This document shows, piece after piece, positions 1 to 52,478 of a stretch of DNA of 64,000 bases. The DNA comes from Telopea speciosissima (taxonomy: Eukaryota > Streptophyta > Magnoliopsida > Proteales > Proteaceae), in contig NC_057924.1 in the NCBI RefSeq assembly GCF_018873765.1, positions 1,674,001 to 1,738,000 of the forward strand, read 5' to 3'. Under the pieces are notes generated by a model. It searched no databases and was not told the origin of the DNA. It saw only the letters and a list, made by a program, of their open reading frames with translations. Positions within the stretch are counted from its first letter, which is position 1; each line of letters opens with the position of its first letter. Position numbers and translations under genes: made by a program.

Positions 1-700
1 ATGTGGTCTAATGAAGGGAGTGCTAGGCAGATTGTGAAGGCTAGGGTTGGAGGATTAGAAGGAGAAGGTAATTTCAGAATTAAATAAACTACTTGAATAA
101 CACTGATCTCCAACAATAGCAGATTGAAGAAGAGCTAAGAGAGGACCTCCCGATCTACAAGATGCAAGGAGTCACTGGGGATTCCAGTCCTTCAATCCTT
201 GATATGACTCACAAGGGGGGGGTCTTGATATGACTCACAAGACTGGATCTCATAAGAGAGAACAGCAGCAACAAAGGCAGCAAGCATAAAGCTGAGTTTT
301 TATTCATCAAAATTCGTATTCAATGCTGGCCTCCCTTACAAACTTATATAGAAGACTCAAAAATAGACTTAGACACTAAAAAGGAAAGGCCTAATCCTGT
401 CCCTAACCTATTAGCTAGCTTAAATTGACTAGGAAACTGAAATAGACTCCAAATAGAGTCTTAATCCAGCCTAACTAAACAACTAAAAGAAAAACTAATA
501 AAATCACTTAAATTGAACCATTGGTTGAACCGGTTCAAGTTAAAACACCAAATAAAAAGCTAAGTATGGTAATAAAACTAAGTATGGGAGCTAATCTCGT
601 ATGCAACATATTTACCCATATTTTAGGCCCATAAAAGTGGCCTATTACATTAGAAACCCATGGGATCAAAGACCCAACATGTATGCAACCCAACCCTAGA
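1..700 (-). mobile_element. LTR-like retroelement remnant, cut by window edge
   Basis: On the minus strand this reads like the promoter/R/U5 part of a plant LTR: a TATA-like stretch (rc of 345-360), then a leader, then an AATAAA-type signal near 295-305. No coding capacity is visible. The outer end lies outside the window and the inner boundary is not defined. The call rests on architecture only; it could be ordinary spacer. Treated as a fossil. Confidence 0.3.
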
Positions 701-904
701 CTTATTCCCAATGAAACAAGCCCTATTTGGTGATGAATCTGCATCACAAACTGTGGCTAGGTGACTCTTCATCTTCCCCAGATTGCAACCCTTCTATCCC
801 TCTTTGGTCCTACACAACCTGATCTTAATCTGGTTGTCCTCTGGAATCAATCATGCAAGAATCCCTTCTGGATTCACCATCACCCTTTCTACTTGACCAG
901 TCTG

Positions 905-1175
905 AAACCCTCTTTTTGCCCTGCATTTTTTCCCTTTTATTCTTCTAGCTTCTTCTTCTCCTCCTCCTCTACCTTCTTCTATGGCTGTCCTCTACTAGTG
1001 GTGGCTGGTGGCTTTGGCAGCTGCATTTTTTCCTTTTATTCTTCTAGCTTCATCCTCTTCTTTGTTCCGTGTCTGACCGTCTTCTACTTTTTTTATTTTC
1101 TTATTATCCTATACCTTCTTCTTCTATGGCTGGCTTCTGCCAGTGGTGGCCGGTGGCTTTGGCTGTTGCCGGAGT
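905..1175. repeat. Imperfect tandem duplication of about 110-130 bp, pyrimidine-rich
   Basis: Two head-to-tail copies (about 921-1020 and 1021-1170) share the blocks CTGCATTTTTTCC, TTTTATTCTTCTAGCTTC, CCTTCTTCTATGGCTG and GGTGGCTTTGGC. The reading frame that stays open through it is low-complexity Phe/Ser/Tyr/Leu and is not credible as protein. From 1190 to 1400 follows degenerate A+T-rich sequence with a recurring TGTGATTATGTAATT-like motif. Confidence 0.55.
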
Positions 1176-1499
1176 GGCTGGTGCTGTAATTTCTGTGATT
1201 CAATGTAAATTGTGCATTTCTTAGTATAATTTATGAAATGGATCTATTATTACAAGTTCTGCAATCTGTGATTATGTAACTATTTATTCTATGATTATGT
1301 GAGTTTGTAATTCTAACATCATGTGAGTAAGTAATTATGTGATTCACTGATTTTGTAATTCTGTGATTATGCTATTTTGCAATTCCTTGATTATGTACTT
1401 CAATTCTTTCATATTTATTTAGTATATAAGTAGAATTATATAAAAATTAATATGCTATTTGTGCCTCATAAAATGGTTATATAAAAAAAAGAATACTAG

Positions 1500-3480
1500 A
1501 ATGCCTTGCGGCCGCCCTATCGCCAAGGCACTTAGGAAGGCCCTCGTCAAACACCATGGTCGCCTTGTGCCTTGATACCTATGACTTGAAGAGTGGATAC
1601 CATCAGATTCGGATCCGGCCAGGAGATGAATGGAAGACTGCATTCAAGACCAAAGATGGGCTATATGAGTGGAAATCGATGCCCTTCGGTCTCACAAATG
1701 CACCAAGTTCCTTCATGCGTGTAAATTGACACAGGTACTCTGTCCATTCATCAGTAAGTTTCTTGTAGTTTACTTTGATGACATTCTTATCTACAGTCAA
1801 ACCACTGAGGAGCATCTTGATCATCTGAAGCATGTGATGAGAGTGTTACGAACAGCGAAACTCTTCATCAACCTCAAGAAGTGCTCTTTTATGCTGCCTA
1901 AGGTTATCTTCCTTGGGTTTATTATATCTTCATGAGGTATTGAAGCTGATCCGGCAAAGGTGCAAAGCATAGTTGATTGGCCAATACCACAAACCTTGAC
2001 AGAGGTCAAGAGTTTCCACGGCCTAGCATCATTCTATCGGCATTTCATTCGTAATTTCAGTAGCATCATGGCACCTATTAGTGAATGCATGAAAGAAGGC
2101 AAAAGGCAAATTCCATTGGACACCTACTGCTACCAAAGCTTTTGCATTGATCAAGCAAAAGATGACTGAGGCACCAGTTCTACGGCTACCCAACTTTGAT
2201 GTCATATTTGAGGTGGCTACATATGCATCCCATGTTGGAATTGGTGGAGTTCTTATGCAATCAAGTCACCGCAATGCCTTCTACAGTGAAAAACTAAACG
2301 AAGCCAAGCGGCGATACTCTACCTATGATCTGGAACTATATGCAATGATCCTTATCCTAAAGCATTGGAGACACTACCTTGTGGGCAAGGAATTTATTCT
2401 CTACTCTGATCATGAAGCCCTCAAGTATCTACATTCACAGCGATCCATAAGCAATCGGCATGCTAAATGGAATGCTTATCTCTAGGAGTTCCACTTTGTT
2501 CTAAGGTACAAAGCCAGCAAAGAGAATCAGGTTGCTGATGCGCTAAGCCATTAAGTACTCACCATGTCCACCTCCACTACTCACACTGCCAGCATTGAAC
2601 ATATTAGAGACGAGTACCCATTTGATTCTGATTTTTCACCTATTCATGCTACGTTACAGCAAGGTGGAACTGATGTGAAGTACTCCTTACATGATGGATA
2701 CCTCTTTTTAGGGACACGTTTATGTATCCCTAACACTTCCCTTCGGCAGCACCTCATCAGGGAGCTACATGGCGGTGGTATGGGAGGACACTTAGGGGTT
2801 ATCAAGACGTATGCTGCAGTTGCTGATTTATACTATTGGCCACACCTACAGCGCCGATGTGCAGCAGGTGATACAAAGTTGCCGTGCTTGCCAGCTTGCT
2901 AAGGGCGATAAACAGAACATAGGCCTATATACACCTCTACCAATACCACATGCACCCTGGTTGCATATCAGTATGGACTTTGTCCTGGGTTTACCATCTA
3001 CACGGGAGCGCCATGACTCTAAATTTGTAGTGATGGACAGATTTTCGAAGATGGCTCATTTTATTCCCTGTCGGAAGACATTTGATGCGAATCATATAGC
3101 CAAACTCTTCTTTAAAGAGGTGATATGTATTCATGGGCTACCAGAGTCCATCATTTCTGATCGTGATGTGAAATTCACTAGTTATTTCTGGAAGACCATG
3201 TGGATGAAAACAAATACCAAATTGAAGTTCTCCACAACCTTTCATCCTCAAACCGACGGTCAGACTAAGGTGGTTAACCGCAACTTAGGCAATCTCCTCT
3301 GATGCCTTGTTCATGATCATGTGAGAGACTGACCTTCTATCCTCGATATTGCAGAGTTCGCATGCAACAGCTCTGTTAATCGTACCACTGGAAGTACCCC
3401 ATTTGAGATTGTTTTGGGCTTGCAACCTAAGCGCACTGTGGACTTGATTCCTCTTCCTCCTCATGTTCGTGTTAGTGTAG
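1500..3480 (+). mobile_element. Ty3/gypsy LTR retrotransposon pol fossil (RT, RNase H, integrase)
   Basis: Successive plus-strand blocks match gypsy pol in the correct order. They are: reverse transcriptase (about 1505-2000, including VYFDDILIYS), RNase H (about 2190-2560, including YSDHEALKYLHSQ), the integrase zinc-binding region (about 2750-2910) and the integrase core (about 2930-3330, including [13 protein letters not shown]). Gag and protease are not seen upstream. The element is broken many times over and is an old, inactive copy. Chromovirus-like ancestry is plausible from the integrase wording, but no chromodomain is visible. Confidence 0.88.
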
Positions 3481-3497
3481 GAGTAGCCATCAGGTAG

Positions 3498-3953
3498 GTG
3501 TAGGGGATTCCCTACACCAGCAGTAATCGTGGGCTGAAAATAGGATTTTATTTGGTATTTTTCTAGTTAATCTTTTATTGAGCTGTAATTCTTATTAGGA
3601 TTCCTAGTGCAAGTTTGAATCCTAATTAGAAGTCCTATTTAGCATTCCTAGTTTTGTTTTGAGTCATAGTTAGAGTTTGTTTTCTTTTCAGCCATGAGGC
3701 TATAAATATGTCTAAGAGCTCCAATTGAGCCCCCAGGATTTAATGAATAAGAAATTTGCTTTTGCAATTGTCAATGTACTGGGATAGGCTGTGAGGGTGA
3801 GATACCCAGGCTGAGATAGCCTACACTGTCTCTCTCTCCATCGATCTACATTCAAGTATTCAAGTTGTTTCAATTCTGCCCTAGCCGATAGCTTGAAGAT
3901 TCAACTTAACTGCTTGGATTCTGCTGCTATACTCAAGAACAGTTCAACCACAA
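3498..3953 (+). mobile_element. Probable LTR next to the gypsy fossil
   Basis: The segment starts TGTAGGGGATTCC and ends near CAACCACA, so it has TG...CA ends. In between are a TATA box (GGCTATAAATATG, about 3700) and an AATAAG-type polyadenylation context (about 3745), a typical LTR layout. It directly follows the truncated integrase region, so it may be the 3' LTR of the same element. No second LTR or target duplication is visible to confirm this. Confidence 0.42.
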
Positions 3954-5310
3954 GTAAGTGCAACACCCCAACCCCCAAACCCTTCTTCTTCTAATCCTCT
4001 AAATCTAACCCTACATTCCCACCATCTATGAACATCATCTCCATTACCTAAATTCCATTCAGACCAAACCACTCATCAAAACCATCTTTATTGATTCGAT
4101 CTTTCCCCCTCACCATAAGGGAAACTCGATTCTAGTGCCAACCCTAGGTGACCATCCTAAACCCTAGATTTCCCTTCCTTTCACTTTCCCAAAACCCAAC
4201 CCTAGACCTAATCTATTGTTCACTCAAGTTTACATACCTAACCTCATCAAAGCATCTCAAAACCTTCAGTGGAAGCTTTCCCTACATCAACTTACCCTAA
4301 CCCAACCATTAAACCCTAGACCCCAGTAAACCCTAACCCTAATTTCACATATTTTGACCTAGCCGCTTTCCCTAATCCTTAGAAGCTCCTAGTTATTGGC
4401 TCTAGTTGGCCTCATACCCATCTAGAATTACATTACCCCCTCCCTCCTCTCCCCTCTCCCCTGCCTCCTTTGCCCCTCTGTGTTACAAAGACAACCTAAG
4501 AACTTTGGGGAAGTGACTTCAGATTTTTTTTTCCCCATACAATTTATTGCATTTAATTCCTCAGTGCATATCATAGGCAAGAAAAAAAAATGAGGATTTT
4601 CAGGTGCAATTCAAGCATAGGGGTTTGCATTCTCTCTTACAAGGCCCTAGGGTTGTCATATATCGAAAATTGGGCCAAGGTTTTGATTGAGATTGATTCT
4701 TGAAGTATGCATGATTTGGAATGGTTGAATTATAATTGATGATTATAACTCTTACAGACATTCACAAATGAGGCAACATCCGTATCCCCCAAACATAACT
4801 TGTATCAGTAGCCACAAAAATTAACAAGAACGGAATGCCTCTCTTCCAAGTTGTCAATGCCTCTGGTTTTCTCTGCATTCTTTGCAGCGTGGATATGAGA
4901 GAGAATTATTTTCTAATCACTTCAAATATATAAGGAGAAGTCCAGCTATTGTACAAATCCCAAAGCAAGAATAAAAAATCTTTAAGCCATAAACCACAAA
5001 GTCAAGAAGGGAAAAAAAAAAAGAAGAAATAATGATATAAAAACCACGTCAGAATTAATTTAAACCAAAATGATTTCTTACTTCATAACTCATATTGTCT
5101 GCCCAGGACACAAGAATAGAGGACCAGCTGGTTGCGAAAATGGGGAGAAACCGAGGAACCTTAAAGATAATAACATGGAGAAAGGAAGAGAGCAAAAAAT
5201 AGCCCAGTCAGATTGGAGGAGAGAGAACAAACAGAAAAAAGGGGGAAAGGAAAAGTGAATTTAACATGAAAATTTATAAGAACATGCAAAAATTCTTTCC
5301 CTTCCTTTGA
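3954..5310. other. Spacer; telomere-motif-rich A+C stretch, no gene seen
   Basis: Between 3960 and 4390 the plus strand is unusually rich in scattered AACCCTA-type words (for example near 4142, 4155, 4196, 4312, 4330). They are not in a tandem array, so this is not an interstitial telomere. It may be degraded retroelement leader or old UTR sequence. 4440-5300 is A+T-rich, with poly-A/T runs, and I see nothing recognisable. Confidence 0.5.
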
Positions 5311-5314
5311 CTGA

Positions 5315-5460
5315 GCAGTACAACAACAACAACAGCACAACCTTATCCCAACTAAATGGGGTTGGCTACATGGATCTTTTAAAAAATAAAGTAGGGAAAA
5401 CTGAGGTCCTCATAAAGGGAAAGGAAAGTAAGAGAAACTTAAAAGTGATGAAATGAGCCA
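5315..5460 (-). mobile_element. RTE-type LINE 3' tail fragment
   Basis: On the minus strand this ends in the tail signature ATCCATGTAGCCAACCCC..TTTAGTTGGGATAAGG followed by a (GTTGTT)n tail (rc of 5317-5378). Simple GTT tails on 5'-truncated copies are characteristic of plant RTE-clade LINEs. Similar tails occur near 31.26, 43.6, 52.98 and 53.1 kb. No ORF remains. Confidence 0.6.
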
Positions 5461-5901
5461 AAAAAACATCTATGAAACAAACAGTAGCAAATTTATCTGA
5501 AATCAACAGACAAATAATCATGACAACCTTACAAAAATTTGCAAAATAATAATCCATGGCCCCATCCTATAGTAAAGAGAAAAAGCTCCTTAATGCAAAT
5601 AAGACCCATGCTTCCATCCAAATGTGAAATTACTCAGATTACCTTAGATATTGAACATTTTGTTTGGTTTTATCATAGTAATTCACGAAATTATTTCATG
5701 CAATGCAAGAAGTTAATTCCAATTTAGCCACTGAATTTGCCGAAATACTTCATGTATTTGAATGTTTAGCCAAGCTACAAATTTTGGTCCAGATTGATAA
5801 GAATAAGTAGTGCCAGTTGCATTTTCATGGCTAGTTTTTTTTTTTCTCTTTGGAATAAAATTAGTTGAAACATTAGGTGTCTCTCAGGAACTCAGCATTA
5901 C

Positions 5902-6290
5902 CTGTTTCGTCCTTCAACAACGATTTGGAGATCAGGTTATCGATTAGAGAGAGCAGTGGCAGTAGACCTGTCGACCCTCCCAGTTCCTCCAATAATCAAA
6001 ATTGAGAGAAATTCTTGAACTAGGAAAGAGAAATATTCAAGGTGGAGAGCTCTACTCTGCGATTAGGGCCGAGGGCGATTAGGTATCAGATTAGAGAAGA
6101 AATAGATAAGGCATTTGAAACAAGGAGCTTACCTGCTCACGAAGAACGCCTGCTGCACCCGTCTGGGGTTAGGCAACAATAGAGAGAAGAAGATGATGGC
6201 TACAGCGGCGTTTTGGACGGCGGTGGCTGTAGGCTTGTCTTCGTCGACGATGAGGTTTCAATTTGAGCCAATAGGGAAATGAAATGTCTA
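5902..6290 (-). pseudogene. Decayed fragment of a saccharopine-dehydrogenase-like gene
   Basis: The minus strand from 6019 to 5902 reads SILIIGGTGRVDRSTATALS, a stop, then PDLQIVVEGRNR. This resembles the N-terminal Rossmann nucleotide-binding region (GGTGRVGGSTA...PDL.IVVGGRNR) of the plant chloroplast saccharopine dehydrogenase-like family (the At1g50450 type, from memory). It is flanked by plausible splice sites: acceptor CCTAG just upstream and donor GTAATG at 5896-5901. An upstream piece (6290-6132, ending at a GTAAGC donor) may be the first exon, but its frame does not join cleanly and no ATG is in frame. The in-frame TAA, loss of the second glycine motif residues and absence of later exons mark a dead partial copy. 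Confidence 0.6.
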
Positions 6291-6585
6291 ATTTGCCCAT
6301 TTGATTGATCCTTTAATGTATCACTGCTTATTGTGTATTAGTCTTTTCACCATTTTGTTATTTTTTCAAACATTAATGAGACATGCTCTTGATAATATCA
6401 GAATCCCTTTACCAAAAAAGATATATATATAATATCAGAATCCCCTGGGTCAATAACTGAGGCAGCACTCGCACAAAAACAAAAAAAACTGAAGCAGCAC
6501 ATCCGAAAGTATTTGCCACAAATGGTATCCAGATCGACATTGTTCCCATAAAAGTGATGAACTCCAATTTTCGTCGACATTGCAT

Positions 6586-6890
6586 AATACTCTATCCCTG
6601 ATTATCTAAGGGCATGGGGAGCCTCTTTAAAACCCATGAGTGCTGCGAAATTAAAATTTTATGGGCAATTATTTTTTATTTTGCCCTCTGGTTCACTTTA
6701 CTCATATATGAATCAAGTTTAGTATAAAAATCAGATCAAATGATTTTATGAATTTAGAATCGTGATTCTATAGAGTTGAAGTGGGTTAAAGGGAAGAATA
6801 AAAATTGATTGTCCATAAATTCCCATTTCACAGCACTCATGGGTTTTAAAGAGGCTCCCCATGCCCTTAGAAAATCAAAGATAGAGTATT
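6586..6890. mobile_element. 305-bp near-palindromic MITE
   Basis: The arms pair from 6586/6890 inward. Positions 6606-6645 and 6831-6870 are a perfect 40-bp inverted repeat, beginning CTAAGGGCATGGGGAGCC. The outer 20 bases pair with about three mismatches, and pairing continues inward, imperfectly, to about 120 bp per arm around a loop of about 65 bp. There is no coding capacity and no clear target duplication (flanks TGCAT and TGAAT match 4 of 5). The high arm identity implies a fairly recent insertion or a conserved hairpin. Superfamily is not assigned. Confidence 0.75.
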
Positions 6891-7284
6891 TGAATACGGC
6901 AAATCTGTCTTGGGGTGGCAGATCACTATCAACTGCCTTTGCCCATTTTGTGTACTGTTGCACCTAAAGCATGTCCTTTGTGTCCATGTTCATCTCCAGC
7001 CTTTTTAGGCTAAACCAATAGTTAAACGAAGGACATTTTTGGGGGTATTTTTTTGAAATATTTATAATTAATTCACTCTTGTACAATTTATTATTTAGGA
7101 AAAACTCAGACCCCCGATGAAGCCATACGGGTGCCCTTTGAAAACGAATTGCATAATTGATTCACCAAGGTAAGTGGATTAGATTGATTTAATTCAAGGA
7201 GTGTTTTTGAATCTTTTAGTCTTGTGTGTCATATTCATGCATTGTTGTTGATTGAATGTTTTCCTATGCATGTCTAGGTAGTTT

Positions 7285-7565
7285 AACTAAATAGCCATCA
7301 TGCTGGTTTGATATAGACCGGTTGATAATGGAACTGAAATTTTTTAGATTGGATTTATAAAAATTACATATCATTCGATTCGGTTTAAATTCACAATTAT
7401 TAACATAAAACTGGATCAAAAACCATTTCATTCGATTCGATTCAAATTCACGATTTTCAGCATTAAATTGGATCAACATGAACAAGTCAAATTTTAATCT
7501 TCAAAACCAAAACCAAAACATTATTTTTCGTTGGTTTCTGTTCGGTTTTAAACCTGTAATGAGAG
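7285..7565. repeat. Degenerate GATTCGGTTT-type dispersed repeat
   Basis: A run of imperfect ATTCGATTCGGTTTAAATTCAC words recurs at about 7375-7395 and 7430-7455, with a related inverted form. Sequence of the same style occurs at 41.1-41.7 kb and 63.78 kb onward. It probably derives from a non-autonomous DNA transposon whose ends are no longer clear. Confidence 0.4.
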
Positions 7566-7941
7566 ACGCACATGTTGGGACGTGGGCCAATAAAAAACTG
7601 GCAGGGCACGTAGAGGATTAGAATATTCTTTTTTTTGTACGTCAATAACGAGCACCAAGGCGAATTAAAATTCTCTGTCGGCGGGGCGGCGGCACAGCAG
7701 AGGCATGTGTTCCATTTGACCTCTACTGTGCCGTCGGATGTATACCGCCGCCCCGCCGGTATTGGAGAAGATCTGGTCAGCGCAAGTCTCACAGCAAGGG
7801 GTTCAGCTTTGGTGTGCCAAACGCTAGTTCGTTGATCCTTTTGGCATTTTCGCTCGCACGCCTCTACCGCGGATTCTGAGTTTCTCTTCCTCGCACGCAC
7901 GCACGCGGGATCGCGTCTTCTGCTGAAACACTACGCCAGTA

Positions 7942-10900
7942 ATGGAAGACTGTGGCGACGTTGATGGAGGAGTAAGAACTGCTCGGCTCCTCTCTCGTGA
8001 GAGCGTCAAGGCACTCGTCGATTCTGTTGAAGTTTTTCTCTTCGATTGCGATGGTTAGAAAGCATATCTTAACAGTCTATGTTTTTCAATTTTCGGTCAC
8101 AGATTTTGGTATTTATTTGACGATTTCATTATAAATCATAATCAGGTGTCATTTGGAAGGGTGATAACCTCATCGACGGCGTCGCGCAGACATTAGAGAT
8201 GCTTCGATCCATGGTATTTCATTCTCTTTCTTGTCCCCTCTATTTTCTTCATGAAAATCTGTTTCCTATTGAATAAGCTAATTTTCAGCTGATCTTCGAA
8301 TCTATTGCTACGATTGTTGAATTCTGCAGGGGAAGAAGCTGGTATTTGTGACGAACAACGCAACCAAGTCTAGAAAACAATATGCAAAGAAGTTCCATTC
8401 GCTGGGACTTGCAGTAAGCGAGGTCTGCTTTAGTAGGGAGAGAACGTAAATTGTTTCAATCGCATTGCGTCCTCTCTATTTATCCCCGGTGTTTGACCTT
8501 TGAAATTATTGCTATTTATTGCTAGGATGAAATTTTTTCGTCGTCCTATGCGGCTGCTATGTTCTTGAAAACCAATAATTTCCCTCCAGAGAAAAAGGTG
8601 AGGCCTTCTCTCACCTTTTCCTGTTTCGTTGCAGAAGGGTTTTCATCTGTCCACTTAATAGTTTGTTGCTTTTTGAGAATCCATTTCAGAATTTGAAACA
8701 TTAGCAGAATTTTTATTCTTATACGTGGTAAGGGACTGATCAATTTCTGCATTGACTTGAGGCTGGTGATGATGTGGGTTGTAGGTGCCTGTGCGTATTT
8801 CCTGCTTGTTTTGAGCTAAATTCCTTCTGTGCCTTTGCAGGTTTATGTGATAGGTGAGGAAGGCTTATTGGAAGAGCTGGAGCTTGCTGGTTTTACTGCT
8901 CTTGGTGGCCCTGTAAGGCTTTGCTCTACATATGAGTATACCACTGAATGATAAGCGACCTTTGGCTATCATTTTACTTGTATATTTCATTCTCTTTTTG
9001 TTCCCCTAAAAACAAATTTTTAGCTACTTCAGAACAACATTTGAGAGAGAGAGAGAGAAAGAGTCGAGGTTAATTTGCTTTTTCTCCTATTTCTCTTCCT
9101 CTTCCCACAATGCAAAACCAGTTGAACATGCTAACCAAAAACACTGAAAGAACATAAAATGTACTCAAGTAAACCCTAGATGATTCACCTTCTATGATTC
9201 TTCCCATTGTTACCCAACTCAACCGTAAAGGAAAGGACATGTCATAGCAAATTCATGTGTAATAATTGAGGCCCTGAGTTGTTAAAACTCCATTTCTCCC
9301 AACTTTTATTTAAATTATAAAAGGATCGAATAAATAGCCCGAAGTTTCAGAACCACAAAACCATCTACCATTTTGTTAATCAATACAAAGTTACTGTGAA
9401 AAAACATCAGCCTCATCCATTTCTGCAGATTGATCAATTGATCCCAATCATCTAACAATGTCTTTTCATTTTGTAAAACCTCCATCCAATATTAGAAAGA
9501 AAGAGAGTGTGGAAGGAGGGCTATCAGGGACGGAGGCATGAAAGTTTTATAGCCTTTGTAAATGTGAGTTACAAACAGAAAACAGTTCTGTCCAAATCTA
9601 GCATAATGGACCATGTCGTCTTGGGCAGCCCCAAATCAGTAGTTGGATTGAAACTTCTTGCTGGGGTTATTGTATTGGCCTTTTTTAGGTGAAAGAAAAC
9701 AAACCCTATAACTAAGGTTTTTCCTCTTTGGGTTTTCAAAATTCAAGAGACCCAACTGCACTCAATCCTTGATTTGGTCAAATGTGCTCATCTGGATCCT
9801 GATTTTGCATTCAAATTTTATATACTGCATTGATCTGTTTGGAAGCTTGAATTTCATATAGTTAGATACTTTCAAATTTGTGTTTTCATTAGATTGGAGA
9901 TATATCCTATTGCAGGAGGATGGGAACAAGAGGGTAGTGCTGGAGTCCAACTTCCTATTTGAACATGATAAGAGTGTAATGTATCCTTAAAACCATCGCC
10001 TTTCAATCATTTTACTTATAGGCATCTGGAATCATGTGGGATGAAATCACTCTGTAGCATTAACTTGCAAGGTGTATCATCCAAAATGGAATCATACAGG
10101 TGATTTTCATTTTAGGATTTGAAAAAATGAATCTATTTCTACTTCTTATACTATTTAAGCTGTGACTGAAATCATGCATTCAAATGTGTGAAAAAAATGA
10201 ATGATTTCACTCCACGTGTTTTCTAAATGCACCCTTAGTATATCTTCTCAATAATAATATAGCAGTTTCTTTTCCCAGGTTGGAGCGGTTGTAGTTGGAC
10301 TTGACCACTATATCAACTATTACAAGCTTATGTAAGATTATTTTTTTTAATGTTCCTTTCTTCCCATCTTAGTTTAGGTGGCAATCTTCGGAGCAACATA
10401 TCAAGGATTAAAGAATCCTCCCACTAGCACAGGAAGTAAACTCTGACATAGGTCAAGTGACTCTCTGTTGAGGGCACAAAAGGATGGTCTGAAACATTGT
10501 TTGGCTGGGTGTTGTAGTAAGAAATGAACTTGATAAGATGAGCCTAACCTTCTAATCTTAGGTCCTCCCATAAGAGTCTGGTCAAGAGAAGGATGTGAAT
10601 TTAATTTCCACCTAGATTTACAGCTTCTATGTGCTTCAGTGTTCTCTTGTAGCTGCAAACACAGTCTTTCTGTTTTTGTCAAACAAATCAAAATGCAAAA
10701 ACTAAGGAGAGGTTGTACTCAAATGGATCGACTTGCTGACTTCGTAATGGAAATTTTAGTGTGTAAGTTTGGAATACATGAGGTATTGGAGGGAAGGATT
10801 CCCCAACTGAGCATCCAGAAGTCTATATACCATGGGAATTTTCTTGAAACATCATTAGAAACCCTGAAGGAAGAAAAATACATGCATAAATATGGGGAAT

Positions 10901-16237: not shown

Positions 16238-19200
16238 TCATGAAACAGATGGGCATCCATCAACCTTAATCCTTGGATGTGTAGGACAAGATGCTAAAAG
16301 GCAATGATCACCTTGATCTGAACCCCACCAATCTGGACCAGGGATCCCATTCATTTCGAGAACAAAATAGATAAGGATGGACATGAAAGCAACCCCTGCA
16401 TCTAAGGCTGCTGAGAGAACATAATTGTGCCTAGCCCACCACCCTCTATACCTCCGATACACATAGACATTGAAGAAGATGCCAACCATACCCCAAGTCC
16501 AATAGTTGACAGCCTTAGCCTCTGGAAAGGAGGAAGCATTGTAGAAGATGAGGGGCATGTGGATGAGTCGTATCCATTTGTATTGTGGAAACTTGCGACT
16601 TAACCACCAAACTGGCACTGGTGAAAGAAAACCAACAAGGAAGAACCAATTCAACTTCACATACACACCAAGCTTCCCAAACATGCGAAGTGGCCCAACC
16701 ACTCCCCATATAATGGAAGCGCTGTAGAATACATGGTCACCTGGGCATGTCCATGGACTTCCCTTTGGCAAGTGATGAACATCACAAATATTCTCCACAC
16801 CATTTAGAAGCCACCATGCTGTGCCGAACTGGGTCATGTTGTTGATCAATGTCCCAACCATCTACAACAACCAAATCACAATATTGGTCTTGCTTCTTAC
16901 TGTGACACAATTTCAAAAATTGCAGAACATTACCTGAACTATGAACATTGATCTAGGAGGGATCTTCATGTAGTGTCCCAGCTTTAAATCTGAAATGAAA
17001 AAGATTGCTTGCACCATACTTATATAACCGTAGGTCTTGAAAGCCACGTTGGCAATGGGTTTTCCCGGATAAAGATAGCCAATAATTAGCTCTGTGATCA
17101 CATTCAGACCAGGTTGCTGTACACAGTTTAAAAAAAAAAAAAAACACTAGTTAGAGATGTGGTATCCTCTCCATAAGAGAGAGACGGAGAGAGAGAGAAG
17201 AGAGAGATTACTTGGTTTGTAGTTGCTGTTATTATACCAATAGGCAACGTGAAAACTAGACCCACAGCAATGGCTAATAGGATCCCCCAATAAGGAAGTT
17301 GTAGTTTTTTATCAAAACCTTCACATGTGAAAACAGATAGTCCAAGCACTGACGCAAAGATTGAATAAAACCACCACTGTGGGACTGAATCATACTTGTT
17401 CATTATCCTGTTGTAGACATCTCCAGTCTTATCTTTTATGCTTGACTTCATTTGTCGCCAAATTGATCTGTGAAGTGATAGAGCCAAGATTATGTTGAAG
17501 ATTGATAACATTGACTTCATTGGCTAGGCCGAAAGCATTGCCCTAGCCAGCTCCTCCAAGTCTAAACTCCAAAGTTGGAATATGCCTCAGGAGAAGGAAA
17601 CATAACAAAAGAGGGCGAAAAAATGGTAAAATTCTCTAGTGAAAGCATTTCTAAAACTTCAAAATAGCTTATAAAAACTCAAAACTAAATAAGCACAAGT
17701 TTTTTCTCTAATTCAAAGATAACAGCTAACTGAAAAATACCAAAAAACCTTTTCTACAACATTAGAAACAATTCACTAATTTAAGGTCAACCATCATTGT
17801 TAAGAAAATCCCTTCTACTATGGGCAAAATTTTGAGGCTTCCCCAAACTGTTCAACTTTTTGCAGCCAGAATGATGGTTGACCTTAATGAATTAATAGGG
17901 AACCCACTGGATAGTCTACAAATCAAATTCCATGGCCTTGTTCAACTATATAGTTCAGCATCTAGTTTAGTCATCTTCTCTCCTGCATTGTAAATTATCA
18001 AATCAAGATCAAATTGATAGATATCTCATATAGCAATTCTACCCATGGGATAGATAGAGGACTGTCTAGGCCGGGCATCTGTCAAATTTCAAGGCCATAA
18101 TCAATTATATATCCCACCACAATGTTGGATTTTTTACTTTAACCATCCAAATCATAACCTAGATTGACCCTTCGATTATGGAACCCGGTGTGATGCCTTT
18201 GGGTTAAAAACTTACCACAAGAGTCATTACTCAATTATATTATAGAGAAGTTTATACTAAACATGCAGTAGCGTTTTGTCCAATTCTAAGTAGTTAAATA
18301 ACACATCTCTTTTTTTCATCATCTTTTAGTTTTTTTTTTTTGGTAATATCATCATCTTTTAGTTTGTTTATTTAAGGAATAGACAGTTATAACTCAACTC
18401 AACTCAACAAAGCCTAATTATCCCAATAGAATAACCCAAAGACATGGTTACTCACCTTCCATCAAAAAGGGCTACATGGGAGAGACTTGCCGCTAATGTT
18501 GCAAAGCTCGCACCATAAGTAAATGCAAAAGCGATACTGACGTAGACCTTACTGTAGTTATCATAAGCATGTTCATTGAACTCGAAAGTCTTCAAGTTCA
18601 AGATCCGTGTAACATTGTAGCTGTTACCATATTCATCAAATGTCCCACTGGAGAAAATGGGAAACCGCTTAGACTCGAAAGAATTGGTCCAATAAGCAAT
18701 CGGGATTAAAACATAAAGTGCGAGGAAGGCACCCGCAAGCGAGCATATAATGGAGTATGGTGGGTAGGACAGTGGACTACTCAAAAAGGCAGTCACCACA
18801 TTCCAGTCGAGTGCAAATGATCCAAGACCCAGCCCTTGTACCCCTGCACCAATTTGGTGGGCTGTGATTGACTTAGGCCATATCCAACATATGAATGAGA
18901 GAGCAGTTAATGAAGGGAAGAGATAGGCTGGGAAAACTGAGTAAGCAAAGCATGAGCCAAGGGCTATCACGAAGAATTGGAAACTTGACAATCTACCCTT
19001 TAACCTTATTTCTTTCTCATGGAGAGCCCTGCAAGATCCATACCCAACAAGGTTAGTAACACATACACACATAGATAGATAGAGAGAGAGAGAAAGAGAG
19101 AGAGATACCTGAACAGAGACACCTGAACGAGGGTGGCTGGCCACCACATGTAGGGTGAATCAACGAGGAACTTTCGAAAGAGACCAGCCCAACCATATCC

Positions 19201-20281
19201 AAGCATCTGTTTGTCAAGGGGAAAAAAATTTGTTCCTTTAATTACATTTTTTATTTTTCAAATTGAGGAGGAAATACAACATCAGTTTTTTGTTATGGAT
19301 GATTGCAATGGAGTAGGTCAAGTGACAAAATCAAAGTATTTTTAAAAATAAGAACCAGAGTAGAGAGGATGAAAAATACAGAGATGCTTGAACATAAATG
19401 GCAAGGCATTTGATGAGTGACGCACCTGGGTAGTTAGGGTTAGCAAAATGGCAATGACGGGTTGGATGTCCTGCTTGTAGAAAATTCTAAGAATGGTGAC
19501 AATGTGGATCGCGTAGACACCACCACTTCCGACGTTTGCAAAAATGGTGATGAGGACGTGCTCCTTCATGTTGAATGGTCCAGGGTTCAACGAGAATGAC
19601 CACCCTCCTCCCAGCATCGGAACCCTCACTGTTTTCACCGGCAATGTCGCAGCCATCAGCTTTCCCACCGGAAGAATTGCCAGTTGAAGAGAGATGGATC
19701 CAATGCTCACCGGGTTCTGTCGAAACCGGTAAAACTGATTTATGAAGGAAAGCAACATGCATGACAGAACCCCTAACACCCAAGTTCGAAACGTTAACGT
19801 CGGCATTGTTGGGTCGTCGGTGATTGGAACTGTTAGCCGGACTTCCTCGATTGGACAATCATTCACCTCTTCTTCTTTACATTCTACAAATTGGACAAGG
19901 AAGAAAGAATACTAAGATTGATTTGGGTTGTTCTATCTATCATTACGTTCATCCTTCTTCTTTCCAGAAGCAGAACACCCCTAAATAAAAACCCAAAATT
20001 TTTGTTTTTGTTCCTGGCTCCCGAAGTACACTCCTAACCGTTGCATGGAAATTACTGGCAATGGTTTTGTTTATACAATGTTTTAGTTTCTCTTCACAAG
20101 TTTTTGTTTCAAACAAATAAAACAATTTCAAATTTTTATATGTTTTAGTTTCTCTGCAAGTTTTTGTTTCAACCAAATAACACATTTTCATAATCTATCT
20201 ACCGCCCCTGAATTAATGAAAGAATATCAGAGAGAGAGAGAGAGAAAGAGAGGCACCTTTGTCATCAGCAGAAACCGCCAT
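16238..20281 (-). CDS. OPT1: Oligopeptide transporter, OPT1/5-type
   Basis: Proton-coupled uptake of small peptides and related compounds across the plasma membrane (family knowledge). Minus-strand exons are 20257-20281, 19426-19883, 19109-19206, 18456-19028, 17212-17467, 16934-17116 and 16238-16861 (2217 bp, 738 aa), all GT-AG. The two OPT signature motifs are present: [10 protein letters not shown] (108-117) and KIPPR (521-525). There are many hydrophobic helices, and the length fits the family. The C-terminus DQGDHC.LASCPT and N-terminal [15 protein letters not shown] resemble the OPT1/OPT5 group; position next to NOP2 supports OPT1. Exon 1 has only 25 coding bases; its ATG is the first in frame and the following acidic stretch is typical. 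Intron 1 holds a tandem repeat and intron 4 a palindromic MITE. Subclade assignment is less certain than family. Confidence 0.93.
17781..17887. mobile_element. 107-bp hairpin, Stowaway-like MITE in OPT intron 4
   Basis: TTAAGGTCAACCATCATT (17781-17798) is exactly inverted at 17870-17887, a perfect 18-bp stem around a 71-base loop. If the terminal TA is taken as the duplication, the ends are AGGTCAACC..., compatible with a Mariner/Stowaway-type element. The family is uncertain, because the usual CTCCCTCC tip is absent. Confidence 0.55.
20079..20190. repeat. Two-copy tandem repeat of about 60 bp in OPT intron 1
   Basis: TGTTTTAGTTTCTCT..CAAGTTTTTGTTTCAA.CAAATAA occurs twice in a row (about 20079-20130 and 20141-20190) with few differences. 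An (AG)n tract follows at 20229-20252 beside the exon 1 donor. Confidence 0.7.
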
Positions 20282-27672: not shown

Positions 27673-27930
27673 CATGGTTCTAAGTATCGGTATAGTATTG
27701 TCCGTATTGGGCGATACATATCGGTTTTGCTAGTCACCAATACTGATACCATTTCGATATCGTATCGGTAGCACGGTACAGACAAGGGGTAATCTCCTTA
27801 AAAAACTCATTTTAAAGGAGATTCAAGGGTAATTTTGTTCGATACAGTTGATCCAGACCGATACCGTATCGGTATCGTATCAATTTTGTAGGTTACCGAT
27901 CCCGTTTTGATACCGTACACTAAAACCATG
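27673..27930. mobile_element. 258-bp hAT-type MITE with perfect 8-bp duplication
   Basis: The ends are CATGGTTCTAAGTATCGGTAT and the inverse of ATACCGTACACTAAAACCATG. TCCCAAAC flanks both sides exactly (27665-27672 and 27931-27938), which fits hAT superfamily insertion. The interior is made of TATCGGTATCG / CGATACCGATA words in both orientations. No coding capacity. Confidence 0.8.
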
Positions 27931-28733
27931 TCCCAAACACCTAGATCTATTGGCGAAGGAAGAAAGGAAAACTGCTTCCTTCAAGTAATTACGTAAATAT
28001 TATCTATATTATGATATATACATAACTCGTTTGAAATTTAGGTTATTATAAACTCATAATCTAATACCGAACAAAAACAAAGGGTAATAGATTAAACGAA
28101 AAATTACACTATCACCTCCTAAGGTTTGTACTAAATACAGAATGACCCCCTGTGTTTCTAAATTATACAACTACACCCCCTAAATTCTCTCGTTAGTTAG
28201 GTGTTACAGTGATGGTTAAGTTTGCCCTCAAATGACTAATATACCCCTTTCAGGGTATAAGCTTACCAATTTTCCCATAGGCCCTAACTTCACACGGATT
28301 CAGATCGTCTACAGCCAAAGTCTTGGCAGCCATCGCGCTGCCACGACCATGGGAGCGACACATGGAGATATTACCATCTAACGGTTAAGTTATAAAAAAT
28401 TCAAGTTTCATGGAAGTGACTGGGTTATCTCCAACCAACCCGACCGGTCCGAGCTGACCAAAATCGACCAAACCGAAATGGTTTCAAAAAACCCTAAGTT
28501 GGACAATGCGATGAGAAGAGGAACCAAAGGTCGTCTTCTTCTCTCCTCACTGTGCCTCTCTCTGACCAAAATGCTCTTCAGCCACTCTTCACCTTATCTC
28601 CGACCTGAAACACAACCAATGTCGTCTTCTTCCTCTTCCACCTTGCCTCTCACTGATTCAAAATTGTCTTCTTCCTCTTCCCCAGTCGTGAAAGGGCTTT
28701 GCATTTACTTATTTTTCACCAAAATCGTCTTCC

Positions 28734-28881
28734 TTGATTGTGAAACATGTCACCTATATTCAGGCCTTCAGGGCAGAGGAAACATTATTGTTGACCCTGA
28801 TGAATGGGTACATCATCTTCTCTTTCTTTTCTGCAATGATTTATTCTGGGTTTTACTTCAATATTTTTCCTCATTTTGAAG
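28734..28881 (+). pseudogene. Unassigned exon-like fragment inside the Pack-MULE
   Basis: Reads YIQAFRAEETLLLTLMNGYI followed by a hydrophobic segment (about FFSAMIYSGFYFNIFPHFE) and then GAAG/GTATCC, a plausible splice donor. It looks like a captured exon of a membrane protein. Not identified. Confidence 0.35.
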
Positions 28882-29639
28882 GTATCCATTTCAAGTTTCT
28901 AATCAAATTCATGCTTACTACTTCTTAGATTCTTCTTGTAGAATGAAGTTTTTTCTTCTCTCAATTGGGGTTTTGGAGTAATGGTGTTTAAGGATTAAAT
29001 CACAAAGTTCTATTAATATGTTTCTGTTTCAGGATTTTGACCCATTCTCTTTGAGTATTGATGGGGATAAACTTCAAGGCCATGGAACAACTGATTGTTG
29101 AAGTCGAGTGTGGTTGCAGTCCTTATAGCGAACGAAGAGAATTCATCAATTCCAGGGTTGGGGTGTATGAGCTTGTGAAACATGGGTTGCTTAATAAGGG
29201 TTGCAGTCTTCATTGGATTTTATTATGCTTAAGGGCAAATGCTCCCCAAGAGAGGCACGGTGAGGAGAGGAACCACACAGGCAGGTGAGTTGCGGCCATC
29301 ACTCACGGTGAGGAAAGCAACCGCAGCGGCAGGGTGAAGAAGACGAGGGTCTGAAAATGGTTCAGTTTGTTTTGGTCAACTCAGACTGGTTGGGGTTGAT
29401 TGTGGAGATAACCAAGTCTACATTTTAAAATTTGAATTTTTTTAAAATGGATCGTTAGATGGCATTTTATACCCGTGTCACACCATGGGAGCATGGCAGC
29501 GCGATGGCTGCTAAGACTTTGGCAGTAGAGGATCTGAATCCACTTCACACCCCCTCTTCCCGGTTTTTCTCCTCTCACTCGAAATCTCCCCTCTTTCTCT
29601 CTCTCTCTCGAAGCAGAAGAAGGGTAATAACAATCGCCT

Positions 29640-29718
29640 CCCTTGATAAAAATCTCACAGGAACCATCCCTTCCACCATAAAAAATCTCAAGCACCTCAC
29701 CACGATCCGCCAAGGTAA
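29640..29718 (+). pseudogene. Leucine-rich-repeat snippet inside the Pack-MULE
   Basis: LDKNLTGTIPSTIKNLKHLT matches the plant extracellular LRR consensus (N.LTG.IP..I..L..L). Only about one repeat is present, likely from an LRR receptor kinase gene. Too short to name a donor. Confidence 0.55.
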
Positions 29719-30274
29719 CCGGCAAAGGGAGATTTGCCTTACCCAAACCAGTCCTTCGATAGACGCATCTATTGCTTTCGTTTTTTGCTCGCATTTACTC
29801 TCCATTTTCCACAAAAAAAAAAAAAAAAAGAATTTTAACTAACAGTCTCAGTCTCCATTTTGATTTCCATTAAAACAAATTCTCCAGAATCAGAGATCTC
29901 TCCCAGATGAACCACCGCCTACATAGTATATGAAAAAAATCCCCTCAAAAAAACAAAGTTTATGATAAAGAGATAGAGATTCAAAACCCAGCAGAAGAAA
30001 AAAGACATTCAAAAAAAAAAAACACTAGAATGAGATTGGCTCTCTTGCGGACTGAAAACCGAAACAGTAAATAGTGGATAGGGTTTTGATTTGTAAGGAC
30101 AAGATCCAGGGAGATTTCATTCCTTGAACGGTTCTCTGAATCAGCTCATAAGCTCATTATTTCCCCTTTTTTTCTCTTCCTTTTTTTTTTTTTGGGCTTT
30201 TGCTTCTTATGTTTTGCTTGACTGTGATTTTCAGAGTTTTAAGAATGGGGAAGAGAGATGAACATCATTAGGTT

Positions 30275-30502
30275 GGATTGCTCCAAGACCTCACCGATGA
30301 AGATGTACTTGAAGACAATGATGAACTGGCTCGGACTCTAGTCGATTCCTTGATTGAAAACAATGCTCTTGAATTGCTGGTTCAGAATCTTGGGAGGTTG
30401 AATGAGAGTGACCCAGATGAGATGACTGCAATTTATAACACTCTTGCTACTATCGAGAACATGATTGAAGGTGAGAGGACCAAGTTGTTGCGGTGGCTAT
30501 TG
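30275..30502 (+). pseudogene. Captured fragment of beta-catenin-like protein 1 (CTNNBL1 homologue)
   Basis: Reads LLQDLTDEDVLEDNDELART, LVQNLGRLNESDPDEM and ATIENMIEGERTKLLRWLL, characteristic of the armadillo-like N-terminal region of CTNNBL1, a spliceosome-associated protein. Compared with the family as I remember it, about ten residues between ENMIE and ERTKLL are missing without breaking the frame. The frame stays open past the homology to 30619, adding unrelated residues, so a chimeric peptide could be encoded. There is no ATG in frame at the start of the homology. It is a captured fragment, not a working copy. Confidence 0.78.
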
Positions 30503-31084
30503 GTTAAAGATTGCATTTACTGCTTTGATGAAGCGTCATTATCTCTGCAACGAACATGGGAAGAGGAACAGGGGAAGAGGGAGTGTGAAGTTTGGGATGC
30601 CCTATGGGCAAAATGGTAAACTCATAGTGTGAAAGGGGTATATTAGTCATTTGAGAACAAACTTAATCATTACCATAACACCTAACTATCAGAGTGGGAA
30701 TTGAGCCATATAATTTAAAAACATAGGGAGTCGCTCTATATTTAGGACAAACCTCAAGGGATGGTAGTGTAATTTTTCCTAGATTAAAAGGTTGGTTTAT
30801 TAAACAATAGAGCAATAGTACATGGGGGTGTACAAGTTATTTTTTAAAAAATAAAAATAAAAATAAAAATAAACTCATAATCTATACATACCAGCCCAAC
30901 CTCTTAGAGTCTCAGCCTTATGCCCTTATGGTAATGGCACATTTTAATTGTGAATTTAGTAGGTAAATGATATGATTTATTGTTTATCCAATTTTATTTT
31001 TTTTTTGTCATTATCTCAACAAAAAAAAAAAAAAAAAAAAAACCTTATAATTCCTTCAATTTGAATCACATTATTCTTTTGAAC

Positions 31085-31559: not shown

Positions 31560-32815
31560 CTTAGTTGTTTTCCATCATTGAACGATCCCAAAAAGTTCAG
31601 CCTCCTTCTCGTCCTTTGTCAGCAATCTACCTGCATCTGTTAGGAAATATTGTTTCTCTAACAAAATGTAAAAAATCCACTGTGCTAGTTTATGATCGGG
31701 TTCATAAATTCCTGCGACCAGTAAACCAGGCAATTTTATTTTAACATTAGCAAATATTGACATGAGTGGTGGATGGTGTGTGTTGTGCAACAATTCTGTA
31801 CAAGAATTTGTAACAGGGGGTGAATATTTAGATTTGAAATCCATTGCAAGACATTATAGATGACCACCATTGGACCAGCTTTAGCTGCAGACATAATTAC
31901 TTTGTTCCTTACATGCCAAATATAATAACAAGTTATAATAAAGACAGAAAAAAACCAAATTAAAGATTGTTTATCAAGGGCTTGTGAGCCAAGGAAATAA
32001 GCACAGAGGTCAGTGAAAGACGGAGCAGATAAATGCTCAGTTTTTAATCCAAGAGGGCAGAAGCCCAGATACGCTTAGTCCAATCACATGATAAGAAAAT
32101 ATGCCAAATCGATTTATCATAAGAACCACAGAAAACACATGAAGGCTCGACGGGTATCTATTTCGAAAGATATGCACTGATAGGGATTCCTGCATTTAAA
32201 ACACGCCAAAAGAAAGTTTTAAAACGAGGATGAATGTGAAGTTTCCAAAAGAATTTCCACCAATGGAACATCAAGGACCTAGGAGAACTAGAAACAGTGG
32301 TAATGCAAGAAGCCGATTTCTTTGTTGAAAATTTTTCAGATTTTGAAAGAGAGCAGCTCCAAGAATCCTTAACGTTGGAAATATTAATTCGCAGAATATT
32401 AGAGACATACAAAGGATCAAAACAGGATTGCAAGCTTACTCTATTCCATGATGTGTTAGACATCAAGTTATGGACATTATGGAAAGTATTATTGTGCAAA
32501 GTAATTTGAGGTAAGAACTTACTAGATGTGGAAGGTATCGAGGGGTCATACCAGCATGAAGTAGTCTTACCATTCCCAATATGTCGAAACACCATCATTT
32601 TTAACTCCGAAAGAGTTTTGTCAATTCTATTCAAAGTCCATGAGCGGCCCTTTGCAAGGGTTTTTGGGTGGAAAATGGACAATTTAGGAAAATACTTTCC
32701 TTTGATAACGTTTGCCCAAATAGAAGATGGGAACACACCAATGAGGTGCAACAAAACGATATCGATCATAGAATCATTTCATGTGAGGAAGAGACAGATA
32801 GATGTATAGGCACAA
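31560..32815 (-). mobile_element. L1-type LINE fragment (zf-RVT and RNase H region)
   Basis: A minus-strand frame of 203 codons (32769-32158) includes WKFFWKLHIHPRFKTFFWR, the zf-RVT region that follows reverse transcriptase in plant L1 LINEs. Downstream come CVFCGSYDKSIWHIFLSCD (zinc-binding end) and an RNase-H-like tail (31844-31575). The upstream RT and endonuclease are absent (5'-truncated) and several stops and frame changes interrupt the rest. No clear A-tail or duplication was located. Confidence 0.78.
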
Positions 32816-49524: not shown

Positions 49525-52478
49525 ATGATGGTTGTGAAAGTTCGCCAGAATTCAACAGACTCTCCGAGAGCAGCAGAGGTGGGAGAAATAGACACTAGAG
49601 CCCCATTCCAATCCGTCAAAGCTGCAGTCAGCTTGTTTGGTGAAGGATCCTCGTCAGGGGAGAAACCTGCCATTAAGAAGTCAAAATCTATTTCTACAGA
49701 GGTATTTCTGAAATTGAGTCACTAGATTTGGAGAACTGCGACTCAAACTTATTGGTTTTTCTGATATTAATTAATTAGTTTGAAAATCTGAAAAATGAAA
49801 TATCTATACCACCACTGTTTGATAGAAGGGGCTCACCTTCCTGGTCAGAAGGCAAAAAGTGGCTAATTGGATGTTCTTATGTTCAATGTGATGGTTATTT
49901 TGGCTTCTCTCTAGATCAAGGCCAGACATTATTAAGTTTGGGCCTAATTGACAACTCTAGACTATAATATGGAGACGGACTGTTAATTGGATTATGACAC
50001 TCTAAAAGATTTTTTCCCCCATAGATATCCCTGTTTTACCACATTGGCAGATTAGGTTCTAGAATCCAATCCAACAGATGGGTGAAAGAGAGGGATAACT
50101 GTTAAATTAAACCTAGATAGTCTATAATCATGCCTCCCACTTTTCATCCTTTTTTTTTAGAAATTTTTATTTTTTGTTTAAGATTTTCTTTTATATGATA
50201 CCAATGGTTCCAATAAATTATCTTAATTTGATTTGAAATGAAACTTAAGTTTCCCCTAGATACTTACTTTTAAGTAGTGGCATTTAATTGCCATAAAAAT
50301 TATTTTAACTTGTGATGTATCATGCATTTGGCTGGTTGGTGCACACACTTTTAGAGCAATATTTTTATGTAATAGCCAGGGTCAATTGGATGTGAATTTA
50401 GTGTTATAAAGTCTTATATTGATGAGGTGATTCTCATTGGTCTTTAGAGTTCAAACTCCACAAATTAGGTAGAGATTACAAGTTCAATGTAATTGGGCTT
50501 GGAAGGCCAGGCTTAAATTCCCATTTCACAAACAAAATATATCCAATCCCAACCGTAGAGTAGCAAATTCTTGGCTGGCTGGACTCCAACAGTTCATACA
50601 GTGTTTAGAAGAATTTGAAAATACACATAATGCATTAATTTCAATTTGACGATATATGTCTAAGATCTGTGCTTCCAATTTCTTTTTGTTTTGCCACAGA
50701 AGGTATTGGCAACGGAGACACAACTTCTCCTGGCCCAAAAAGAGCTAAACAAGCTCAAGGAACAGTTGAAAAATGCAGAAACTACCAAGACACAAGCACT
50801 TGCTGAGCTTGAAAAGGCTAAACAAACAGTTGAGGATTTATCCAACAAGCTGGAAAATGTAAATCAGTCTAAGGAATTGGTAATTAAGGAGACAGAGGTG
50901 GCAAAGAGCCAAATAACGCAACTAGGAAAAGGGAACTCTAGTCACTCTGTCGGAACTGATGATGCGTGGAAACAGGAGTTGGACAATGCAAGAGAACAGT
51001 ATGCAGCCACCATTTCTGAACTTGATGCTGCCAAACAAGAACTCAGGAAATTCCGGCAGGATTTTGAGTCATCCGTAGAAGGAAAAGCTGCTGCATTCCA
51101 GCAAGTAGCAGAAGCTGAACTTGCAGCCGAGGTTAATGCAGAGAAGGCCGCTGAGCTGTCGAAGGAGCTTGCAACCATAAAAGATTCACTTGGGCATGTG
51201 AAGCTTGCTTCTTTGCAAGCCCAGCAGGAGCAAGAAAAGATTCTTGAGGTCAAAAATGCTCAGAGACAGTCTTATAGAGCAGCCCTGGAAGAAGCAGAGA
51301 AGAAACTGCTATCTTTGAAGAAAGAGTTTGATCCTGAACTTGCCAGGAACCTCGAAGATAAGCTTGCTGAAACAGCTGCTGAGATCGGGGCTTTACAAAA
51401 GGAGAAGGAAAATGCCCAGGCTTCTGATATGGATTCTGTAAGAAATGTGACGTCAGAGCTTGATGGTGCTAAAGAAGCATTGCACAAAGTGGCAGAAGAA
51501 GAAAGCACTCTGCGGAGCTTGGTGGAGTCTCTCAAGGTAGAGCTGGAAACAGTGAAGAAAGAACATTCTGAACTGAAAGAGAAGGAAGCCGAAACTGAAT
51601 CTATTGCTGGAAACTTGCATGTCCAGCTCCGGAAAAGTAAGGCTGAACTTGAGGCAGCCCTTGCCGAAGAATCTAAAGCCAAAGGTGCTTCAGGTGAGCT
51701 GATCTCTACCCTCCAACAGTTATCCTTAGAATCGGAAAATGCAAGAAAGGAGGCAGAAGAAACAAAGAGAAATGCTGAAGAGTTGAAGAAAGAAGCTGAA
51801 GCCACCCGTGCTGCCCTGGCAGAAGCAGAAAAGACACTACAGATTGCACTGAAAGAGACTGAAGAAGCAAAGGCAGCAGAGGCAAAGGCCCTGGATCAGA
51901 TTAAGATATTGTCTGAAAGAACCAATGCAGCTCGTGCTTCAACATCAGAATCTGATGCAATGATCACATTATCAAAAGAGGAATTTGAGTCTTTTAGCTG
52001 GAAAGTTGAAGAATCTGATAAATTGGCTGAAATGAAAGTAGCCGCAGCAATGGCTCAGGTGGAAGCCATAAAGGCAAGTGAGAATGAAGCACTAAATAGG
52101 TTGGAGGCAAGCCAGAAGGAGATTGAGGAGATGAAAGCTACAACGGAGGAGGCTTTGAAGAGGGCAGAGATGGCAGAGGCAGCAAAGAGTGCTGTTGAGG
52201 GAGAACTTCGTAGGTGGCGTGAAAGAGAGCAAAAGAGAGCAGCTGAGGCTGCTGCTCTTATTCTTGAATCGGAGGTTTCTGCAGCTTCATCAACACAAAA
52301 TGCCACGGTTCAGAAGCAGAACCAACCAGAGAAGGTTGTCGGTGTCCCTAAGCTGGATAAAACAAAATCTGGCTCAAGGAAGGTACTGTTGCCCAATCTC
52401 AGTGGTATCTTCACTAGGAAGAAGAACCAGGTTGAGGGTGCGTCTCACTCTTACCTCCCTGGGGAGAAACCAGTGTGA
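49525..52478 (+). CDS. TREPH1: WEB-family coiled-coil protein, TREPH1-like (At5g55860 type)
   Basis: The coding parts are 49525-49701 and 50700-52478 (651 aa). The N-terminus has the WEB/DUF827 signature GEIDTRAPFQSVKAAVSLF (20-38). Residues about 60-560 form an almost continuous Ala/Glu/Lys-rich coiled coil. The C-terminus is basic and ends LPNLSGIF...SYLPGEKP. Arabidopsis TREPH1 (649 aa, from memory) is a touch-regulated phosphoprotein; other WEB proteins take part in chloroplast photorelocation. The serine of LPNLSGIF (Ser627) aligns with the touch-phosphorylated Ser625 of TREPH1. Two adjacent in-frame ATGs (49525, 49528) could start it. A GT-AG intron separates the exons. Long minus-strand open frames over the second exon are shadows of its biased codons. 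Polyadenylation signal candidate AATAATAAAA near 52650. Confidence 0.93.

Follow-up and report, generated by a model that had tools for sequence, protein, structure and literature searches.

The 2683-bp element in the left half of the window (the whole stretch of 64,000 nucleotides of Telopea speciosissima DNA analyzed here, C9:1674001-1738000) is very probably two nested Pack-MULEs, the inner one, with M20-peptidase cargo, lying in the left TIR of an outer one with a CTNNBL1 mosaic. The preliminary description had proposed one Pack-MULE carrying pieces of several host genes; the kind of element and the origin from several loci were borne out, but a single element was not. Because there are two elements, the M20 exons and CTNNBL1 were collected by different ones. 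The nesting, two 9-bp TSDs, an empty site, two donor loci, a kept intron, and deletions common to the relatives were all observed directly. The features are listed in Table 1. Genome searches covered 822,943,500 bases on 1287 contigs, and the TIR types are referred to as shells A to D.

Table 1 Features of the nested elements, in window positions
Feature	Position	Strand	Basis
Left TSD TAGATTAAA, outer element	28088..28096	+	Sequence; 9/9 versus right copy
Right TSD TAGATTAAA, outer element	30780..30788	+	Sequence
Outer Pack-MULE, TIR shell A, 2683 bp including inner element	28097..30779	+	C10 sister without inner element
Outer left TIR, outer portion, 199 bp	28097..28295	+	End pairing, genome matches
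Left TSD ACTTCACAC, inner element, within outer left TIR	28287..28295	+	Sequence; L009 empty site
Inner nested Pack-MULE, TIR shell D, 1246 bp	28296..29541	+	Sisters at 89-96%
Inner left TIR	28296..28463	+	Inverted match to 29370-29541, 78%
M20-peptidase exon fragment, then GT splice donor	28732..28807	+	Alignment to L012; about 70 nt of donor exon missing
Captured intron of M20-peptidase donor, 225 nt, GT...AG retained	28808..29032	+	Alignment to L012
M20-peptidase second exon fragment	29033..29197	+	Alignment to L012; about 60 nt of donor exon missing
Inner right TIR	29370..29541	+	Inverted match to left TIR
Right TSD ACTTCACAC, inner element	29542..29550	+	Sequence; L009 empty site
Outer left TIR, inner remainder beyond nested insertion	29542..29561	+	Pairs with 30572-30591, 95%; first 9 bp are TSD copy
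LRR-like piece, 131 bp, about 25 LRR-like residues	29585..29715	+	Other MULE-like elements have 29585-29640 as inner TIR
Captured low-copy leader segment	29736..30271	+	C5/C3 copies 79-88%; C7/C2 via L014
CTNNBL1 exon fragment, two internal deletions	30271..30538	+	27 bp versus donor L015; 395 bp versus L011
Outer right TIR, about 208 bp	30572..30779	-	End pairing, genome search

Results

Borders and sisters of the outer element

MULEs are recognized by long TIRs (about 100 bp or more) and by TSDs of 9–11 bp. The ends of the outer element pair in two blocks, 28098-28167 with 30709-30778 at 83% and 28194-28281 with 30601-30688 at 85%, giving a TIR of about 210 bp with 78–85% identity between the ends. 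They had been described earlier as inverted and about 180 bp long; the inversion was correct, but the length was not, the left TIR being divided by the inner element. The perfect 9-bp duplication of TAGATTAAA noted in the same description was confirmed, with agreement at all nine positions.

A search of the genome with a 22-base pattern from the shell-A end, with up to 1 mismatch allowed, gave 448 matches (216 forward and 232 reverse), and the reversed control gave 0; the ends thus belong to a genuine repeat family. L009 (C10:6931655-6933066) is a sister copy of the outer element that lacks the inner one. The prediction that the ends would lead to sister elements thus held, both in the pattern matches and in the C10 copy. 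No similarity was found between the flanks of the window element and those of L009 in about 1.1 kb on each side, and on the evidence of this sister in dissimilar surroundings the outer element moved as a unit. The TSD of L009 itself falls in poly-T and is unreadable. Because it contains a host-gene fragment with a donor elsewhere (CTNNBL1, on C11), the outer element is a Pack-MULE.

Degenerate repeats of a GATACCGTATCGGTATCG-like unit occupy window positions 27742-27919, just left of the outer element. Elsewhere in the window, frames judged by eye resemble a Gypsy integrase (2796-3299), an oligopeptide transporter (16241-19911), a LINE-type product (32161-32778), and a coiled-coil protein (50664-52475).

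The inner element and its insertion site

When the whole interval was searched against the genome and the best 40 of 1209 candidates were scored, query positions 200-1445 matched several places as a unit, and positions 1-199 and 1446-2681 adjoined each other on C10. L009 holds one uninterrupted ACTTCACAC, where the window holds ACTTCACAC, 1246 bp, and ACTTCACAC again. Because this empty site is exact, we conclude that the inner element entered the outer left TIR at a later time. The pairing of 29542-29561 with 30572-30591, past the inner element, likewise demonstrates that this TIR was split. Among the best 40 of the 1209 candidates, the inner element was not seen nested in an outer element a second time.

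Distances between copies were in keeping with this order. With gaps left out, the two outer copies, window and L009, were separated by a JC distance of 0.074 (1207 columns), and the window copy of the inner element and its sister L017 by one of 0.033 (1246 columns), as expected if the inner element is younger; its distances to L019, L020, and L022 were 0.045–0.084, also with gaps left out. TIR-to-TIR JC distances within the window were 0.23 for the outer and 0.32 for the inner element. Because these far exceed the distances between copies, TIR divergence is no clock here.

The five inner sisters examined were L017, L019, L020, L021 (partial), and L022. The TSD of the inner element agrees at 9/9 positions in the window and, at the other sites, in L020 at 9/9, L017 at 8/9, L019 at 6/9, and L022 at 5/9; that of L021 is unreadable. 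A 25-base pattern from the shell-D end had 30 matches in the genome and 0 in the control. Its TIRs, 9-bp TSD, donor locus elsewhere, and sister copies identify the inner element as a Pack-MULE in its own right. One of the sisters, L017, is itself interrupted by a retroelement (integrase-like frame, by eye).

The inner cargo, 28732-29197, aligns to donor locus L012 on C11, where the frame of the second donor exon (L012:4753-5073) matches Peptidase_M20 (PF01546; 8.1e-11) and that of the first has no family match in Pfam. This M20 peptidase may be acetylornithine-deacetylase-like. Because its intron was retained, the cargo was captured from DNA. An exon-like stretch with a splice-donor-like end had been noticed earlier; it exists, as part of the nested element and not of the outer cargo. 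The interior pieces had been expected to find donor genes elsewhere, with introns kept if capture was from DNA, and CTNNBL1 and M20 loci were both found on C11, the latter with the intron that the cargo retains; the part of each gene that was checked forms the basis of this comparison.

The CTNNBL1 piece and its deletions

The interior had been thought to contain a CTNNBL1-like fragment, and the window frame 30272-30619 indeed matched the CTNNBL family (PF08216) with an E value of 2.2e-17. The family matched nine stretches across the genome, the strongest being donor L015 (C11:49450408-49451466), in which a 390-aa ORF gave an E value of 9.9e-135. Another CTNNBL fragment, with stops, lies at C8:20183339-20183836 (L055).

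Three other copies share the history of the window piece in part. L011 (C5) is a shell-A element with both TIRs, a TSD of 8/9 by eye, and a longer CTNNBL1 piece that is without 27 bp of the donor. The same 27-bp loss is found in L010 (C7), L009, and the window, all of which also lack a further 395 bp present in L011. In L010, which displays one end only, CTNNBL1 sequence continues leftward past the position corresponding to 30271, where the leader takes its place in L009 and the window. Past the CTNNBL1 exon, L011 and the window have only about eight non-donor bases in common.

Capture of CTNNBL1 from cDNA, in which the gap would reflect intron loss because 30502-30538 matches L011 395 bp further on, was considered and rejected. 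The missing stretch lies within one reading frame in donor L015, and the 395-bp gap is therefore a deletion.

The leader segment

Between the LRR-like piece and CTNNBL1 lies the leader, whose C5 and C3 copies, part-length in some cases, are 79–88% identical to it. The C3 version (L014) in turn matches C7 at 72% over its full length and C2 at 85% over part. One C5 copy is near a wall-associated-kinase frame (GUB_WAK_bind in L013), and the likeness among L013, L026, and L014 ends soon past a short ATG frame. The leader may be a promoter or a 5' leader, which is a guess. A TAG at 30269-30271, just ahead of the CTNNBL1 frame, closes its short frame in the window; by eye, the L009 frame runs for two codons before a stop. 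Directly before the leader in two C5 copies, 28 bases match the right end of shell D (L013 4243-4269 and L026 6351-6377).

The LRR-like piece and TIR families

A 181-bp query containing the LRR-like piece matched 22 places: the window, L009, 14 in the nine loci examined, and 6 others, short matches that were left out. All nine loci have the inner TIR region of shell B (L050 is matched by all eight others), and the LRR-like piece spans the border between shell-B TIR and cargo. In six of the nine (L046, L048, L050, L051, L053, and L054), 29585-29640 recurs in inverted orientation without the LRR-like part, as expected of a TIR edge. Four loci have clear outer ends at both sides, two of shell B (L048 and L050) and two of shell C (L051 and L053); no matching end pair was found in the stretches examined of L047, L049, and L054. 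By eye, the shell-B TSDs look right (8/9 in L048, T-rich in L050), and those of shell C in L051 and L053 are unclear. A genome search with the LRR-like peptide found four places, the window, L009, and two MULE-like loci, and no LRR gene.

The four shells appear unrelated to one another. Over their first 72–75 bases they scored no higher than shuffled sequences, except that one A copy was weakly like C (23 versus a shuffle maximum of 21). One LRR-like cargo occurs under three of these TIR types, A in the window and L009, B in L048 and L050, and C in L051 and L053. L051 and L053, 89% identical over 1639 bp including the ends, enclose the body of L050 with near-identical breakpoints (L050 positions 473/469 and 1618/1617). 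Judging from these breakpoints, the ends of another family seem to have appropriated an element body, the outermost shell-B ends being replaced in L051 and L053. A cargo body of about 1.1 kb is common to L048, L050, L051, and L053, under two unrelated TIR types.

Transposase

The absence of a transposase, remarked on earlier from inspection, was upheld as far as it was examined: 28 frames of 40 aa or more were listed in the element, and of the four interior ORFs put to Pfam none matched a transposase, CTNNBL being the only family above the cut-off in the outer element. No MULE transposase (PF10551; 150 places scored of 827 candidates) lay within shell-A ends among the places listed, which were compared by eye and include part of the 448 end-pattern matches. 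Among these, one shell-A end was near such a place (C3:60489328 and C3:60497861), but the pairing gained no support, none being found in 2.2 kb beside the C3 transposase candidate. An autonomous partner of the outer element was thus not found among these places.

Larger shell-A elements were also inspected. L045 (C7:23668800-23678500) holds at 648-8669 an 8.0-kb shell-A element whose TIRs are 97% identical, with an inverted repeat of about 1.75 kb (90%) that might conceivably give a hairpin-forming transcript; the element appears by eye to have a cargo reading frame in common with L063 (C4), and no transposase was seen by eye among its six longest frames. None was seen by eye among the ten longest frames of the 6-kb L065, in which one frame looks gag-like. 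In L023 (C4:8600800-8604300), a shell-A element has a 150-aa frame (1319-1768) that is PPR-like by eye, and in Pfam gave only a sub-threshold match to Med16_bridge.

Discussion

The element belongs to a known kind of mosaic and is well preserved. Parsimony applied to four copies (L011, L010, L009, and the window) suggests the following order of events. A non-autonomous Mutator-like element with shell A would have acquired a CTNNBL1 exon fragment, after which losses of 27 bp and, next, of 395 bp would have occurred in its copies. The left side of one lineage would then have been rebuilt, with the low-copy leader and part of another MULE-like element joined on, and this lineage would have transposed, so that it now occupies both C10 and the window locus. 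Later, a shell-D Pack-MULE carrying the M20 exon-intron-exon piece would have inserted into the left TIR of the window copy. Template switching or gap repair could account for the capture, and a transposase provided in trans for the movement. The window element is most likely inert now, because its left TIR is interrupted and the leader frame stops at the CTNNBL1 junction.

That one Pack-MULE gathered every fragment might be supposed from the position of all the pieces between one TIR pair and one outer TSD, but this is very improbable: the inner 1246 bp is bounded by TIRs and a 9/9 TSD of its own and has five sisters at other sites, and the empty site in L009 refutes it. Still less credible, to the point of being negligible, is a native gene or pseudogene that decayed at this locus and lies among chance or unrelated repeats. 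Such a gene would account for the exon-like and LRR-like pieces; both donor loci, however, are on C11 and not on the contig of the window, hundreds of genome matches to the end pattern stand against none for the control, the outer element recurs on C10, and the sister copies and TSDs refute this reading. A role for the nested elements through a chimeric transcript, or through small RNAs acting on CTNNBL1 or the M20 peptidase, appears improbable, though somewhat less so. The CTNNBL1 piece, in sense orientation, has the leader directly upstream of it, and the long TIRs could form hairpin RNA, but the leader frame is closed by a stop in both the window and L009. Over 63 codons of the CTNNBL1 frame, the window and L009 differ by three synonymous and two non-synonymous changes, too few to show selection. 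By these comparisons, there is so far no sign of a putative benefit to the plant.

The LRR-like piece is a less settled matter. An LRR snippet had been reported in the interior, and LRR-like residues are present; an LRR gene as their source was not confirmed, since the loci examined are MULE-like. The piece does read as an LRR repeat, and it could have come directly from an LRR gene that other TIR families took independently, its position in the shell-B TIR being secondary, because acquired sequence can enter extended TIRs according to one study (PMC3310237). Both outer ends are clear in only four of the nine loci examined, moreover, and six short matches were set aside. Against this stand the shell-B inner TIR region in all nine loci, the second, inverted occurrence of 29585-29640 without the LRR-like part in six, and the recovery of the peptide at only four places, namely the window, L009, and two such loci. 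We therefore consider direct origin from a gene rather unlikely, and conclude that the LRR-like piece was probably taken from another Pack-MULE.

Jiang et al. 2004 reportedly dealt with Pack-MULEs in plants.

The Pack-MULEs of rice, maize, Arabidopsis, and tomato (Ferguson and Jiang 2012; PMC3310237) resemble those described here in having long TIRs, a 9-bp TSD, host-gene fragments, sister copies, and no transposase seen; here, in contrast, one element is nested in the TIR of the other and one piece probably comes from a third MULE-like element. The same work describes MULEs with multiple or tandem TIRs, which like ours contain extra MULE ends, and considers acquisition of TIR sequence as a route to them. 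The extra TIRs in the window, unlike those, were brought in by a nested element whose TSD is clear, and L051 and L053 contain the body of an element with TIRs unrelated to their own. Where another report (PMC3903597) describes nested insertions in transposase-bearing MULEs, host and guest here both carry genes, and the insertion is in a TIR. Pack-TIRs formed by FoSTeST or gap filling (PMC8277862) are similar in that non-adjacent pieces are joined inside TIRs and then amplified; the model was drawn from animals, whereas the mechanism proposed here is read from junctions only. Our literature searches, with most subscription journals outside their scope, found nothing on nested Pack-MULEs, TIR exchange, or captured Pack-MULEs. 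Within the same scope, a search for Pack-MULEs in Proteaceae returned only the lotus genome paper, the main text of which is without the term, and none of the papers listed treated Telopea together with Pack-MULEs or Mutator-like elements.

How Pack-MULEs come to contain pieces of several genes is an unsettled question. With the intermediates L011, L010, L009, and the window, together with donor loci and an empty site, all in one genome, the steps can be read and not guessed. That Pack-MULEs rob each other, so that gene fragments cross between unrelated TIR families and mosaics arise partly by re-capture and not by repeated theft from genes, is a proposition to which we give an even chance. 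If re-capture between TIR families is general, the number of 'gene capture events' counted per element would overstate the copying of genes themselves.
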